From Candidatus Shapirobacteria bacterium (lineage in GTDB: Bacteria; Patescibacteriota; Microgenomatia; UM-FILTER-40-11), in NCBI GenBank assembly GCA_020059745.1, contig JAGVBK010000001.1, forward strand, positions 1-57,931: a stretch of 57,931 bases of DNA, in the 5' to 3' direction. A program made the translations under genes and the position numbers. Under the pieces are notes generated by a model. The model made no database searches. It was not told where the DNA came from and was given only the letters and a program-made list of their open reading frames with translations. Of this stretch, positions 1 through 57,931 are shown piece after piece (the first letter of the stretch is position 1; each line of letters opens with the position of its first letter).

Positions 1-53
1 GGGGCTCGAACCCGCAACCTGTCCGATGGACATCGGACTGCTCTAGCCAGTTG
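1..53 (-). pseudogene. tRNA-Asp-like 3' fragment, cut by window edge
   Basis: Read on the minus strand, this matches the D-arm, anticodon-arm position and T-arm of the tRNA-Asp at 70-143. The 5' acceptor strand is missing and is replaced by unrelated sequence at 54-69. The normal anticodon arm is replaced by a near-perfect palindrome (8-bp arms, 2-nt loop). Bases 9-53 are a 45-bp direct repeat, with one mismatch, of 411-455. The window ends inside the T-arm, so the 3' end is unseen. It is unlikely to work as a tRNA because it lacks the 5' acceptor strand. Confidence 0.7.
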
Positions 54-69
54 CCTTTTAGTTTTTAGG

Positions 70-143
70 CGGGATTGACGGGGCTCGAACCCGCAACCTT
101 CCGCGTGACAGGCGGATGCTCTAACCAGTTGAGCTACAACCCC
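70..143 (-). tRNA. tRNA-Asp (GTC)
   Basis: A complete cloverleaf is visible on the minus strand: a 7-bp acceptor stem with one G-T pair, a D-arm, an anticodon stem TCCGC/GCGGA with loop CTGTCAC giving anticodon GTC, and a T-arm with TTCGAGC. The discriminator base is G, as expected for tRNA-Asp. CCA is not encoded. Its bases T8-A9-G10 also form the stop codon of the GIY-YIG ORF that runs into it. Confidence 0.95.
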
Positions 144-403
144 AAGGCTATTTTTTGGTCTTTAATTATTTTTTCAATTATATTCCGATTGGCAAAACTT
201 TTTAGTTTATACTCAATTTTCCTGGCGGTTTTAAGATCAGGAAATTCTTGACTAAAAACTAAAACAACCGGTCTAATGTTTCGTGTAAATTTTGATTTAC
301 CATTCAAATGATCGTTTAGCCTTCTATTTAGGTTATTTGTGCTTCCTAAATAGTATCGGCCATTCTTTTCAGATTTAAGAATATAAACGAAACCTTTAGT
401 CAT
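134..403 (-). CDS. Single-domain GIY-YIG endonuclease (UPF0213/YhbQ-like), copy 1
   Basis: An 89-residue protein consisting of one GIY-YIG fold. It has the N-terminal FVYILKS strand, YYLGSTNNL as the YIG motif, the conserved Arg in NRRL about ten residues later, and a later Glu (KIEYKLKSF) in the metal-site position. No DNA-binding extension of the homing-endonuclease type is present. The ATG lies 7 nt after a truncated tRNA-Asp-like sequence on the same strand. The TAG stop lies inside the downstream tRNA-Asp gene, so the last residues (ALGL) are encoded by tRNA sequence. No Shine-Dalgarno is seen; it is probably made from the tRNA transcript. The family is structure-specific nuclease-like; the actual substrate is unknown. 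Confidence 0.85.
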   Translation of the reverse strand: MTKGFVYILKSEKNGRYYLGSTNNLNRRLNDHLNGKSKFTRNIRPVVLVFSQEFPDLKTARKIEYKLKSFANRNIIEKIIKDQKIALGL

Positions 404-410
404 TTCGTTT

Positions 411-467
411 AACCCGCAACCTGTCCGATGGACATCGGACTGCTCTAACCAGTTGAGCTACAACCCC
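411..467 (-). pseudogene. tRNA-Asp-like 5' fragment with palindromic anticodon arm
   Basis: On the minus strand this begins like tRNA-Asp (acceptor 5' strand, TAGCTC, D-arm) and continues to the T-stem, then breaks in the T-loop, 7 nt before the GIY-YIG start codon. The anticodon arm is a palindrome at 423-440 (GTCCGATG and CATCGGAC around 2 nt), one nucleotide longer than the arm of the intact tRNA-Asp. GTC still sits near the anticodon position, but the loop would have 8 nt. With no 3' acceptor strand it cannot fold as a tRNA. Confidence 0.7.
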
Positions 468-13056: not shown

Positions 13057-13134
13057 CCGCGTAAAATCCGCTTCGCGGATCACGCGGTAAACCATGCGGA
13101 TCACGCGGTAAACCATGCGGATCACGCGGTAAAC
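13056..13134 (+). repeat. Nested palindrome and 21-bp tandem repeats before GIY-YIG copy 2
   Basis: ACCGCGT (13056-13062) pairs with ACGCGGT (13082-13088), enclosing ATCCGC-TTC-GCGGAT (13066-13080). The right half is then repeated as a 21-bp unit at 13075-13095 and 13096-13116, with a third partial copy at 13117-13134. Each unit contains GGTAAAC; the last lies 5 nt before the ATG of the GIY-YIG reading frame. Confidence 0.75.
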
Positions 13135-13139
13135 AGTAC

Positions 13140-13393
13140 ATGTATTATGTTTATATAATTGAAAGCATAAAGGACAGTTCCTGGTACATTGGTTATACAC
13201 CCGACAGTCCTTTAAAAGATTAGAAAAACATAATTCAGGAACAGAATATTATTCTAAAAGAAAAATTCACTGGAGACTTATTTACTTTGAGGCATATATA
13301 AAGCAAGAAGATGCTACATATAGAGAGAAATTTCTCAAAAGTGGTGCGGGGAGAGTTTTTCTAAAAAAGCAGTTAAAAAATTATTTAGGTTAA
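13140..13393 (+). pseudogene. Frameshifted GIY-YIG endonuclease, copy 2
   Basis: The frame starts MYYVYIIESIKDSSWYIGYTPD, a typical GIY-YIG N-terminus, but after about 25 codons it runs into a stop. The rest of the domain continues in another frame with FKRLEKHNSG, WRLIYFEAYIKQEDATYREK and FLKSGAGRVFLKK to a stop at 13391-13393. One single-base change near 13210 restores a normal protein of about 84 residues. It is either a decayed gene or a sequencing error. It lies between tRNA-Lys and tRNA-Glu on their strand. Confidence 0.8.
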
Positions 13394-13403
13394 TCGGCTT
13401 GCC

Positions 13404-13420
13404 GTCGCGTAGAACGCGAC
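13404..13420. repeat. Palindrome after GIY-YIG copy 2
   Basis: GTCGCGT, AGA, ACGCGAC: a perfect 7-bp palindrome with a 3-nt loop, just after the end of the GIY-YIG pseudogene. Confidence 0.7.
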
Positions 13421-13435
13421 AAACGTACGATCAAG

Positions 13436-13495
13436 GAAGCTATACCGGCTTGCCGCGTGCGAAGCTATACCGGCTTGCCGCGTGCGAAGCTATAC
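13436..13495 (+). repeat. 25-bp tandem repeat, 2.4 copies
   Basis: Two identical 25-bp units (13436-13460, 13461-13485) beginning GAAGCTATACCGGC, plus 10 bp of a third unit that runs into tRNA-Glu. Part of the unit (CGGCTTGCCG) also occurs at 13395-13404. There are no spacers, so it is not a CRISPR array. Confidence 0.85.
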
Positions 13496-13497
13496 GC

Positions 13498-13570
13498 GGC
13501 CCCATCGTCTAGAGGCCTAGGACACGAGGTTTTCAGCCTTGTAACCCCGGTTCGAATCCGGGTGGGGTCA
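13498..13570 (+). tRNA. tRNA-Glu (TTC)
   Basis: Complete cloverleaf: GGCCCCA acceptor with TGGGGTC, anticodon loop TTTTCAG (TTC) on a CGAGG/CCTTG stem, T-arm CCCGGTTCGAATCCGGG. Discriminator A; CCA not encoded. Confidence 0.93.
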
Positions 13571-50762: not shown

Positions 50763-51017
50763 TCAATGTAAACTATTTATCAATAACTCTTTTTTCCTTC
50801 TTCCCCAACCCTTAATCTCTTTTTCTCTTTTCGCTGCTTCAACTCGGTTTAAAAATGATTCTTGATAAACTAATAATACTGGTATTTTAGATTTTTGAAG
50901 GCAACTTTTATACCCATGATTGTGTTGCCAAATCCTTACCTTCAGGTTACTGGTAATTCCTGTGTAATATGAATTATCAGCGCATCTTAGGATATAAACA
51001 TAACATTTTTTAATCAT
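50763..51017 (-). CDS. Single-domain GIY-YIG endonuclease, copy 3
   Basis: 84 residues. CYVYILRCADNSYYTGITSNL gives the two GIY-YIG strands in typical UPF0213 form; the conserved Arg follows in KVRIWQHN, and Glu in RVEAAKREKEI completes the site. No other domain is present. The ATG follows GGTAAAC directly, and 11 nt further upstream lies a palindrome (51029-51045). tRNA-Gly(GCC) follows 20 nt after the TGA. It is probably transcribed from the promoter at 51232-51260. Confidence 0.88.
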   Translation of the reverse strand: MIKKCYVYILRCADNSYYTGITSNLKVRIWQHNHGYKSCLQKSKIPVLLVYQESFLNRVEAAKREKEIKGWGRRKKELLINSLH

Positions 51018-51028
51018 GTTTACCCTGA

Positions 51029-51045
51029 AGCAAGCTTTGCTTGCT
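51029..51045. repeat. Palindrome before GIY-YIG copy 3
   Basis: AGCAAGC, TTT, GCTTGCT: a perfect 7-bp palindrome with a 3-nt loop, flanked by ACCC and GGGT that extend the pairing. It lies 11 nt before the ATG of copy 3. Confidence 0.75.
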
Positions 51046-51122
51046 GAATGGGTGCCAAGAGCGTGAGTTGCACACGCATCTGAGCTTTTTCAGAGCCCCG
51101 CCGTGACTACCTTGGCTATCTT

Positions 51123-51260
51123 GGCATGTATAAATGCTGTTATTCTAATCTTCTTAATTTCAGGTGACAGCTTGATAAATAAAAGAACATCAACCGAGAC
51201 ACCATTTATACATGCCCCGGCAATTTATATTATAGCTAATTTTACCTTTAAACCCAACTT
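51123..51260 (-). promoter_or_regulatory. Strong promoter leading into a long inverted repeat
   Basis: On the minus strand TTGGGT (51255-51260), 17-bp spacer, TATAAT (51232-51237). About 16 nt on, GGCATGTATAAATG (51203-51216 read on the minus strand) is perfectly inverted at 51123-51136, with 66 nt between. Further smaller stems follow at about 51055-51100 (TCTGA/TCAGA and GCGTG/CACGC with a 7-nt loop). The transcript would be a structured leader of about 200 nt before GIY-YIG copy 3, or a separate RNA. Confidence 0.55.
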
Positions 51261-51263
51261 TAT

Positions 51264-51524
51264 TCAAGACTTTAATCTAAGCCAATTCTCCAGTCTTTTC
51301 CTTAAATAATTCTTCCCCAATCTACTTTTAAGATACTTTTCTCTTCTAAAAGCATCTTTTTCGTTTATGCAGGCCTCGTAGTATACAAGATCAAACGGAA
51401 AATAAGGTTTGGTTGAGACTACTTCACCATTATTGTGTTCATTAAGCCTTCTTTTTAAATCATTGGTACAACCCGTGTAAAAGAAGTTTTTGGAAAGACT
51501 TTTTAAGATGTATACAAAATACAT
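51264..51524 (-). CDS. Single-domain GIY-YIG endonuclease, copy 4
   Basis: 86 residues. MYFVYILKSLSKNFFYTGCTN gives the GIY-YIG strands, LKRRLNEHNNG the conserved Arg helix, and DAFRREKYLKSRLG the metal-site Glu helix. It starts 26 nt after tRNA-Val on the same strand with no palindrome between them, so here the tRNA itself takes the upstream position. The two GIY-YIG ORFs in this cluster differ in sequence and are not a recent tandem copy. Confidence 0.88.
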   Translation of the reverse strand: MYFVYILKSLSKNFFYTGCTNDLKRRLNEHNNGEVVSTKPYFPFDLVYYEACINEKDAFRREKYLKSRLGKNYLRKRLENWLRLKS

Positions 51525-51624: not shown

Positions 51625-51710
51625 AAAAACCTTAAATCGTGATTTAATTTTATCAAAAATAAAGGTAATTTACCATAAAAATGAGATTAATTAGGTAAAA
51701 AGAAACAAAG

Positions 51711-51799
51711 AAAAAGCCCCTGGAAAATGAGAAGTGAGGAAAAGAAATTACATCAGCTTTACGCTGTCTCCTACCACAACTCACTCTATTCCAGGGGCT
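51711..51799 (-). ncRNA. Rod-like hairpin with poly-U end
   Basis: AGCCCCTGGAA (51715-51725) is perfectly inverted at 51789-51799. Inside, AGTGAG pairs with CTCACT, and a small CAGC/GCTG hairpin forms the tip. On the minus strand it ends in a T-run. It is a long intrinsic terminator or a small rod-shaped RNA. I found no match to 6S, SRP, RNase P or tmRNA signatures. Confidence 0.6.
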
Positions 51800-51801
51800 A
51801 G

Positions 51802-51871
51802 AAAAAAACCAGGTGTATTAGTAAAGGTCCACAATTGGAACCTAGGGCCTAGCCGGTTAGGCAACACCTGG
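51802..51871 (-). ncRNA. Three-way-junction RNA element with poly-U end
   Basis: Minus strand: an 8-bp closing stem CCAGGTGT/ACACCTGG (51809-51871) encloses two hairpins, GCCTA/TAGGC and AGGTTCC/GGACCT, and is followed by seven T. The shape of an aptamer closed by a terminator is suggestive of a riboswitch or attenuator, but I do not recognise the class. No protein gene follows it before tRNA-Val. Confidence 0.55.
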
Positions 51872-51888
51872 TGCGGCCACAACTTCAT

Positions 51889-51910
51889 GCGAGGGGAGTT
51901 CTGCCCTCGC
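51889..51910. repeat. Hairpin after the 15-residue ORF
   Basis: GCGAGGG and CCCTCGC form a 7-bp G+C-rich stem around an 8-nt loop. On the minus strand it starts 10 nt beyond the small ORF's stop codon. Confidence 0.6.
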
Positions 51911-51919
51911 GCCCGCCTG

Positions 51920-51967
51920 TCAGGACGACGATCTCAAGATAAGAAGAGAAAATGTAATAACAATCAT
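51920..51967 (-). CDS. 15-residue leader-peptide-like ORF
   Basis: A frame of 16 codons encoding MIVITFSLLILRSSS, mostly hydrophobic branched residues followed by Arg and three Ser. It has a perfect Shine-Dalgarno (AAGGAGG, 51974-51980) 6 nt before the ATG, rare in this window. It is followed by three strong RNA structures, two ending in poly-U. It resembles an attenuator leader peptide or a tiny type I toxin; nothing proves that it is translated. Confidence 0.45.
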   Translation of the reverse strand: MIVITFSLLILRSSS

Positions 51968-52005
51968 AGACTGCCTCCTTGACCTGAGACCAAATGCTAC
52001 CCCAG

Positions 52006-52055
52006 TTGGCAGCAATTCAAACCTCCTATTTTTAAGAAGTTTAAACTGCTGCCAA
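52006..52055. repeat. 17-bp inverted repeat
   Basis: TTGGCAGCA arms extend to a 17-bp stem (two G-T pairs in the minus-strand RNA) around a 16-nt A/T-rich loop. The loop and its edge hold AGGAGG on the minus strand, so a ribosome site would be partly hidden. It starts the structured region 51711-52055. Confidence 0.6.
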
Positions 52056-52201
52056 AGGGTAATTTTAAAGTACAACAAGCGCTAATGCTTGAAAACTTAA
52101 TCACAATTATATTATGAAATAATAACACCGTCAATAGTTAACACTATAAGGTAAAGAGTGAAATAAATTAACGAAGAACAAAAACAAAAAAATGAAGCTT
52201 G

Positions 52202-57486: not shown

Positions 57487-57544
57487 GCGGTGGTAGTTCA
57501 GATGGTAGAATGTCTCTCCCGCCAAAGGCGGGATCGAGGGTTCG
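57487..57544 (+). pseudogene. tRNA-Gly-like 5' fragment with palindromic anticodon arm
   Basis: It is identical to the tRNA-Gly at 57789 for the acceptor 5' strand and D-arm. The anticodon arm is replaced by TCCCGCC-AAA-GGCGGGA (57517-57533), which leaves no normal 7-nt loop. The match resumes into the T-stem and stops at TTCG of the T-loop, 2 nt before the GIY-YIG ATG. Bases 57504-57544 are repeated at 57879-57919 with three mismatches. It cannot fold as a tRNA. Confidence 0.7.
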
Positions 57545-57546
57545 TT

Positions 57547-57798
57547 ATGTATTTCGTATATATTTTAAGAAGTACAAAAGACGGAAAGTATTATATAGGT
57601 TCTACTAAAAACATAGAACAAAGATTATATAGACATAACAGGGGGTTGGTAAAGTCAACCACGAGAAGAGCACCTTTAAAGTTGATATACTACGAAGAAT
57701 ACAAAACATTATCAGAAGCTCTAAAACGAGAGAGCAAAATCAAAAGCTACAAAGGAGGAGAAGCGTTTAAAAGACTTTTGAAAAATTCGCGGTGGTAG
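57547..57798 (+). CDS. Single-domain GIY-YIG endonuclease, copy 5
   Basis: 83 residues. MYFVYILRSTKDGKYYIGST is a textbook GIY-YIG start; IEQRLYRHNRG carries the Arg and EALKRESKIKSYKGG the Glu. The ATG lies 2 nt after the truncated tRNA-Gly-like sequence. The TAG stop is formed by T8-A9-G10 of the next, intact tRNA-Gly, so the last residues (SRW) come from tRNA sequence. This is the same arrangement as copy 1 at the other end of the window. A longer frame reaches back through tRNA-Pro but is not plausible. Confidence 0.88.
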   Translation: MYFVYILRSTKDGKYYIGSTKNIEQRLYRHNRGLVKSTTRRAPLKLIYYEEYKTLSEALKRESKIKSYKGGEAFKRLLKNSRW

Positions 57799-57864
57799 TT
57801 CAGATGGTAGAATGTCTCCCTTCCAAGGAGAAGGTCGCCGGTTCGAATCCGGTCCACCGCTCCA
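57789..57864 (+). tRNA. tRNA-Gly (TCC), CCA encoded
   Basis: GCGGTGG acceptor with CCACCGC, anticodon stem TCTCC/GGAGA with loop CTTCCAA (TCC), T-arm CCGGTTCGAATCCGG, discriminator T and an encoded CCA (57862-57864). Its first ten bases overlap the end of the GIY-YIG ORF. Confidence 0.95.
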
Positions 57865-57878
57865 TTTATTACTCGAGC

Positions 57879-57931
57879 GGTAGAATGTCTCTCCCGCCAA
57901 AGGCGGGGTCGCCGGTTCGAATCCGGTCCAC
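57879..57931 (+). pseudogene. tRNA-Gly-like 3' fragment, cut by window edge
   Basis: It begins in the D-arm (GGTAGAATG), carries the same AAA-loop palindrome as 57517-57533, and continues through a good T-arm toward the acceptor, where the window ends. The 5' acceptor strand is replaced by other sequence. It mirrors the fragment at 1-53. Confidence 0.65.

Follow-up and report, generated by a model that had tools for sequence, protein, structure and literature searches.

Why should the gene for a small GIY-YIG nuclease and an intact tRNA-Asp gene lie together between two broken copies of that tRNA? The question arises at the left end of the window, the whole stretch of 57,931 nt of Candidatus Shapirobacteria DNA analysed here, which is one entire contig (C4 of genome G000) of an 857-kb genome in five contigs.

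Layout of the unit at tRNA-Asp

All stranded parts of the locus lie on the minus strand and follow one another in the order 5' piece, GIY-YIG ORF, intact tRNA-Asp, spacer and 3' piece:

411..467, minus strand: 5' piece of the split tRNA, covering nt 1 up to the T-loop, with a palindrome for its anticodon arm (from the sequence and the match of the reconstituted tRNA)
411..455, minus strand: 45-bp direct repeat, copy A (from the sequence)
423..440, no strand: palindrome GTCCGATGTCCATCGGAC, copy 1, 8-bp arms
134..403, minus strand: GIY-YIG nuclease ORF, 89 aa (ORF list, PF01541)
68..143, minus strand: intact tRNA-Asp(GTC), with no second intact copy found in the genome
54..67, minus strand: spacer of 14 nt from the intact tRNA-Asp to the 3' piece (from the sequence)
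1..53, minus strand: 3' piece of the split tRNA, D-loop onward, with its last 12 nt on contig C2 (C2:25727-25738)
9..53, minus strand: 45-bp direct repeat, copy B, spanning D-loop and T-loop sequence, one mismatch against 411-455
21..38, no strand: palindrome GTCCGATGTCCATCGGAC, copy 2

An earlier note on this DNA had read 9-53 and 411-455 as the same 45 bp with one mismatch, enclosing the ORF and an intact tRNA-Asp, with the upstream copy broken in the T-loop. All of this is borne out by the sequence, in which the break falls between GCGGGTT and AAACGAAATG. Its description of the copies as tRNA halves stands only in part: they are pieces of a tRNA, but not complementary halves, since one runs from the 5' end as far as the T-loop and the other begins in the D-loop and continues to the 3' end. 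The 45-bp repeat is the overlap between both pieces of one split tRNA. The missing acceptor end of the 3' piece is supplied by contig C2 (C2:25727-25791), whose last 84 bases are identical to window bases 1-84 and form a dovetail with them.

The copies had also been taken for plain truncated tRNA-Asp, and this has to be given up. Outside the anticodon arm both pieces match the intact tRNA-Asp almost perfectly, and in both the arm is replaced by the same 18-nt perfect palindrome with its 8-bp arms. Because the palindrome stands in the position of the anticodon arm, the pieces could not decode Asp; the intact tRNA-Asp was a single copy in a search of the genome.

The ORF, which comprises hardly more than the Pfam domain itself, matches PF01541 with an E-value of 1.8e-17, its catalytic residues Y7, Y18, R28, H32 and E64 are invariant within its clade, and its stop codon TAG coincides with nt 8-10 of tRNA-Asp. 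It is the sole ORF between the tRNA pieces, and no tyrosine or serine recombinase gene was found in the unit. A group I or group II intron with a GIY-YIG gene was rejected on the grounds that no Rfam intron is matched anywhere in the window, that a complete tRNA is carried and that the pieces overlap by 45 bp. A target-site duplication by a single staggered cut would fit the overlap, but fails for loci with a different intact allele and for tandem pieces upstream of an intact tRNA (L168).

The near-identity of the 45-bp repeats suggests recent formation or gene conversion. In G001 an orthologue of the ORF occupies the same polX locus, with no tRNA piece upstream of it, from which it follows that the Asp copy is old and vertically inherited across at least two genera. 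No empty allele is available for the Asp site, where the comparison was limited to a single genome of the genus and three of the order, all with contigs that end nearby. In the Asp unit, whose broken and intact tRNAs differ almost only in the anticodon arm, a takeover by a foreign allele cannot be seen.

The close match of broken and intact tRNA outside that arm and the G001 orthologue are also what one would expect if the ORF were a resident housekeeping-type gene, similar to UPF0213, that happens to stand beside tRNAs, the pieces having arisen by tandem duplication or recombination without any insertion. The closest solved structures, which are of UPF0213 proteins, point the same way. The evidence on the other side comes from other loci and is given in the next section.

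The right end of the window lies within a second such unit, at tRNA-Gly(TCC), which extends from 57487-57931 to C5:1-99 and has the same three-part layout:

57487..57544, plus strand: 5' piece of the split tRNA-Gly; its palindrome, TCCCGCCAAAGGCGGGA, occupies 57517-57533
57547..57798, plus strand: GIY-YIG ORF
57789..57864, plus strand: intact tRNA-Gly(TCC)
57879..57931, plus strand: 3' piece of the split tRNA-Gly, whose remainder lies on contig C5, joined by a 94-bp dovetail

The 3' piece carries a palindrome as well. With both ends of the contig inside units and the joins to the next contigs made by dovetails of 84-94 bp, the layout could be suspected of being a contig-end assembly error, a worry that the earlier note had raised. 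It is answered by mid-contig examples of the three-part layout in other genomes (L125/L240 and L164/L186), at 71 kb of 291 kb in contig C1 of G058 and at 135 kb of 233 kb in contig C1 of G293, and we give such an error almost no credence.

Elsewhere in the genome, contig C5 holds two tandem units before tRNA-Lys(CTT), and all seven of the seven small GIY-YIG ORFs or remnants found adjoin tRNA genes.

Some tRNA-linked regions of the window are less clear. On the minus strand, 50763-51524 is a row of tRNA-Val, GIY-YIG ORF, tRNA-Phe, GIY-YIG ORF and tRNA-Gly, with no clear tRNA pieces beside either ORF; in G002 (L014) a GIY-YIG ORF likewise lies between tRNA-Phe and tRNA-Gly. A frameshifted GIY-YIG remnant at 13075-13500 (plus strand), between tRNA-Lys and tRNA-Glu, is bordered by short tandem repeats (GGATCACGCGGTAAACCATGC; GAAGCTATACCGGCTTGCCGCGT). 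Between tRNA-Leu and tRNA-Val, about 540 bp (51650-52190, minus strand) contain no convincing ORF; a GC-rich hairpin lies at 51889-51910, and there was no Rfam match at the gathering threshold.

Recurrence, empty sites and probable transfer of the units

We surveyed 76 genomes of the class, which takes in Daviesbacteria and Gottesmanbacteria (L212 in G028; L240 in G058), and read 108 loci, to which a scan of about 85,000 species added 80 loci from Patescibacteria, KSB1, Elusimicrobia, Omnitrophota, Bacteroidota and other phyla. A same-strand tRNA adjoins 151 of the 213 distinct small GIY-YIG ORFs (just downstream of 99, just upstream of 52 more) and is absent at the remaining 62. The stop codon coincides with tRNA nt 8-10 in 32 of the 99 ORFs with a downstream tRNA. 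In 73 of the best 80 relatives a tRNA on the same strand lies no more than 150 bp away, against a background of 0.13 per kb, and a GC-rich palindrome lies near 55 of these 80, compared with 53 of 533 control regions.

The partial tRNA copies are sorted by side. Upstream copies (n = 66) start at nt 1-2 in 59 cases and reach nt 72 in only 2, whereas downstream copies (n = 40) reach nt 72 or beyond in 31 cases and never start at nt 1-2; 20 loci have both, and breaks near the T-loop are common among the surveyed pieces. Such sorting is what an insertion that splits a tRNA gene would produce, and not what random duplication would give. Many GIY-YIG ORFs are found per genome, at many tRNA isotypes.

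The Asp unit is thus one case of a recurrent unit for which we found no earlier description. Our literature search (GIY-YIG with tRNA in Patescibacteria, UPF0213 with tRNA, palindromic elements with tRNA) returned none, many subscription papers lying outside its reach. As a separate observation, a second ORF at L212, a GIY-YIG ORF before tRNA-Gly(CCC), has a 5' tRNA copy that reaches nt 57 and is without a palindrome.

Sequence comparison finds both occupied and empty alleles at one site, which is not the Asp site: tRNA-Val(CAC) upstream of lepB (family f23, loci L270-L284, in Gottesmanbacteria relatives). The tRNA is bare, with no ORF or obvious tRNA piece, in G081, G176, G024, G042, G090, G118 and G167, of which G081 belongs to the same genus as G058. 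G058, G071 and G129 each carry a different GIY-YIG unit there, and in G137, G108 and G098 ORF-less remnants flank the tRNA. The start of the 5' piece in G058 coincides with that of the bare tRNA, and the promoter region ahead of it is recognisably similar.

At the same site the tRNA alleles are strongly discordant with the divergence of lepB. G058 and G081 share 78% identity in lepB and 73% in the tRNA; the corresponding values are 61% and 93% for G058 and G137, and 60% and 96% for G098 and G108. In G137 the broken 5' piece equals the G042 allele over 19 aligned nt and the intact tRNA is another allele, while G108 combines a broken 3' piece that matches the G058 allele at 94% identity with an intact tRNA of a third type.

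Units are also found displaced between genomes and between loci. A block of 451 bp in G052, bounded by nt 1 of tRNA-Ile and by the 3' end of the last tRNA piece, is shared with G154 at 93.6% identity; the two genomes belong to different families (f14 and f16, GTDB-type), and the flanks of the block are unrelated. One of the two contigs may have been mis-binned, in which case the unit would still stand in two different contexts. In G032 a 343-bp unit occurs in two copies (96.5% identity), at tRNA-Gln(CTG) and tRNA-Gln(TTG). Spread of the unit between genomes and between tRNA loci is supported by these comparisons.

The earlier note had allowed two origins for the layout, recombination of tRNA copies or the entry into a tRNA gene of a unit with an ORF and a replacement tRNA; the order of the pieces, the empty sites elsewhere, the mismatched alleles and the 451-bp block favour entry of a unit. 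The same four observations, together with the many ORFs at many isotypes within one genome, speak against a resident gene with duplicated tRNA pieces, an origin that we consider quite unlikely. Our best reading, which we hold to be probable without regarding it as settled, is a selfish or mobile unit of GIY-YIG gene and tRNA that enters and replaces tRNA genes.

The palindrome and its pairing with the nuclease

The palindrome and the generality of the unit go beyond what the earlier note had described. A search pattern that sets the GTCCGA palindrome between tRNA D-stem and variable-loop sequence gave 27 matches in 17 of 374 class genomes, and the reversed-pattern control gave none in the same 374. 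With 27 matches against 0, and with the architecture repeated at many loci, the tRNA-framed palindrome cannot be attributed to chance. In the broken pieces palindromes usually occupy the anticodon arm or the D-loop.

Palindrome and nuclease vary together. All 12 ORFs that adjoin the GTCCGA palindrome fall into one 15-row clade of a 138-row tree (SH-aLRT 96), the other three rows being the G001 orthologue and two ORFs with a near-variant palindrome. Across 55 loci, ORF distance and palindrome distance were correlated with a Mantel r of 0.57 (maximum of 2000 permutations, 0.21), and among pairs at different tRNA isotypes the values were 0.51 against 0.29. tRNA isotype is itself clustered on the ORF tree, with 39 changes compared with 53-62 in shuffles. 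The alignment behind the tree has 88 columns, and many forks are unresolved. Two pairs of ORFs gave dN/dS ratios of about 0.07-0.08, although dS was saturated in one of them, and these ratios indicate purifying selection.

Most likely, the palindrome is a binding site of the nuclease or a cleavage-proof version of its target, an inference made without binding data; it may instead be a joining scar. At L076 and L123 the palindrome is split between both ends of the unit, and some units have inverted repeats on either side of the ORF. At L168 (G251, 1441-1645) three palindrome-bearing tRNA pieces stand in tandem, 59 bp apart, upstream of an intact tRNA-Thr, and at L169 (G053, 1500-1590) two such pieces, 64 bp apart, stand upstream of an intact tRNA-Arg. 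Neither the split palindromes nor these ORF-less tandem pieces are explained by the unit model.

Two further explanations draw in part on these loci. In the first, an integrase or REP-like transposase acting in trans moves the units by way of the palindrome or the tRNA, and the GIY-YIG gene is a mere passenger. Palindromic pieces without an ORF, the tandem ones included, would suit such an enzyme, as would the inverted repeats and split palindromes of some units and the standing of tRNA genes as classic integrase sites. It is countered by the covariation of palindrome and GIY-YIG across isotypes, which is expected if the protein reads the palindrome, and by the lack of a recombinase gene in the units. 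We regard it as unlikely, while leaving it some weight.

In the second, the palindromic tRNA pieces are structured RNAs that neutralise or regulate the nuclease, in the manner of the repeat RNAs of type III toxin-antitoxin systems, and the tRNA neighbourhood reflects shared transcription. The covariation is compatible with this as well, and so are the 59-64-bp tandem pieces at L168 and L169 and the piece placed directly 5' of the ORF at many loci. However, a piece also lies downstream of the ORF at many loci, tandem copies are rare, and neither the allele replacement nor borders that fall precisely on tRNA nt 1 and on the 3' end would be accounted for, which leaves this explanation very improbable.

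A proposed mobile unit with a replacement tRNA, and its known counterparts

Under the preferred reading of a mobile nuclease and tRNA unit, the minimal unit would comprise two genes, one for a GIY-YIG endonuclease and one for a complete tRNA. On entering a tRNA gene it would leave the target in two pieces, 5' and 3', within which the cognate palindrome of the nuclease would sit, while the working tRNA would be supplied by the unit itself. We infer that the GIY-YIG protein cuts or nicks the tRNA gene, no nuclease activity having been observed, that repair then copies the unit into the cut gene, and that the host comes to depend on the tRNA of the unit, which would make the unit hard to lose. 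Mobility and replacement are supported by comparison, whereas the cutting step and the role of the palindrome are inferred. What the comparison itself establishes, at the level of sequence, is the order of the pieces, syntenic empty sites, allele replacement, a unit present in two lineages, the pairing of palindrome and nuclease, and purifying selection. Against the reading stand the absence of any observed nuclease activity or movement, the old, vertically inherited Asp copy and the ORFs without an adjacent tRNA (62 of 213).

Prophages, islands and tycheposons are elements of the integrase type whose attachment sites are tRNA genes, which they restore. The units resemble them in entering at a tRNA, in having direct repeats of tRNA sequence at their borders and in keeping an intact tRNA, but differ in lacking a recombinase gene, in their size of about 350-450 bp, in the palindromes of their broken copies and, in the cases compared, in carrying a complete tRNA. 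REP sequences and Rickettsia palindromic elements are short GC-rich palindromes inserted in genes, RNA genes included. Here, by contrast, the palindromes lie in tRNA copies at the edges of nuclease units and co-vary with the nuclease, and no Y1 transposase (RAYT) is linked to the palindrome within the Asp unit, the rest of the genome not being covered by this statement.

The nearest experimental precedent for the proposed cutting, by analogy, is SegB of phages T4 and T6, a free-standing GIY-YIG homing endonuclease encoded in a tRNA cluster (PMC13096335, PMC2988022). SegB cleaves at RAWTSGAAC within tRNA genes, and a tRNA-bearing segment is amplified through its action (PMC13096335). This motif is the complement of T-loop sequence. 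In both systems a GIY-YIG nuclease gene lies between tRNA genes; SegB, however, is phage-borne, and neither splitting and replacement of a tRNA gene nor a cognate palindrome in a broken tRNA has been reported for it. The window ORF had no match in a phage collection (tblastn, E 1e-5), only weak matches to PHROG homing endonucleases, and five weak, short matches in viral contigs. The units meet the description of a free-standing GIY-YIG homing endonuclease in having the domain with its catalytic residues and, at tRNA-Val(CAC)/lepB, occupied and empty alleles.

Engineered cleave-and-rescue and home-and-rescue drives encode a nuclease that destroys the essential resident copy of a gene and carry a working version of it (PMC7951863, PMC7968924). 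These drives use Cas9 in eukaryotes, whereas the present unit is natural and bacterial and its cutting has not been demonstrated. It does share the central arrangement, a nuclease gene tightly linked to a working tRNA, with the former copy disrupted. The logic would apply here because the broken copy is dead and the tRNA of the unit may be the only one, which remains a hypothesis. A more specific form, possible yet tentative in our estimation, is that of a natural minimal cleave-and-rescue element: the nuclease would disable the sole essential tRNA gene, the palindromic copies would be dead, cleavage-proof and templates for repair, the linked tRNA of different sequence would act as the antidote so that loss of the unit is lethal, and repeated cycles would have swapped alleles across many phyla.

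If the reading is true, units of about 400 bp with a single nuclease domain repeatedly take over essential tRNA genes in reduced bacterial genomes, and would represent a natural counterpart to engineered cleave-and-rescue drives as well as a mechanism for tRNA-gene turnover through horizontal transfer. They would offer many nuclease-palindrome pairs in which the evolution of GIY-YIG specificity can be studied, and would account for the partial tRNA genes and tRNA-linked GIY-YIG ORFs of Patescibacteria and other phyla.
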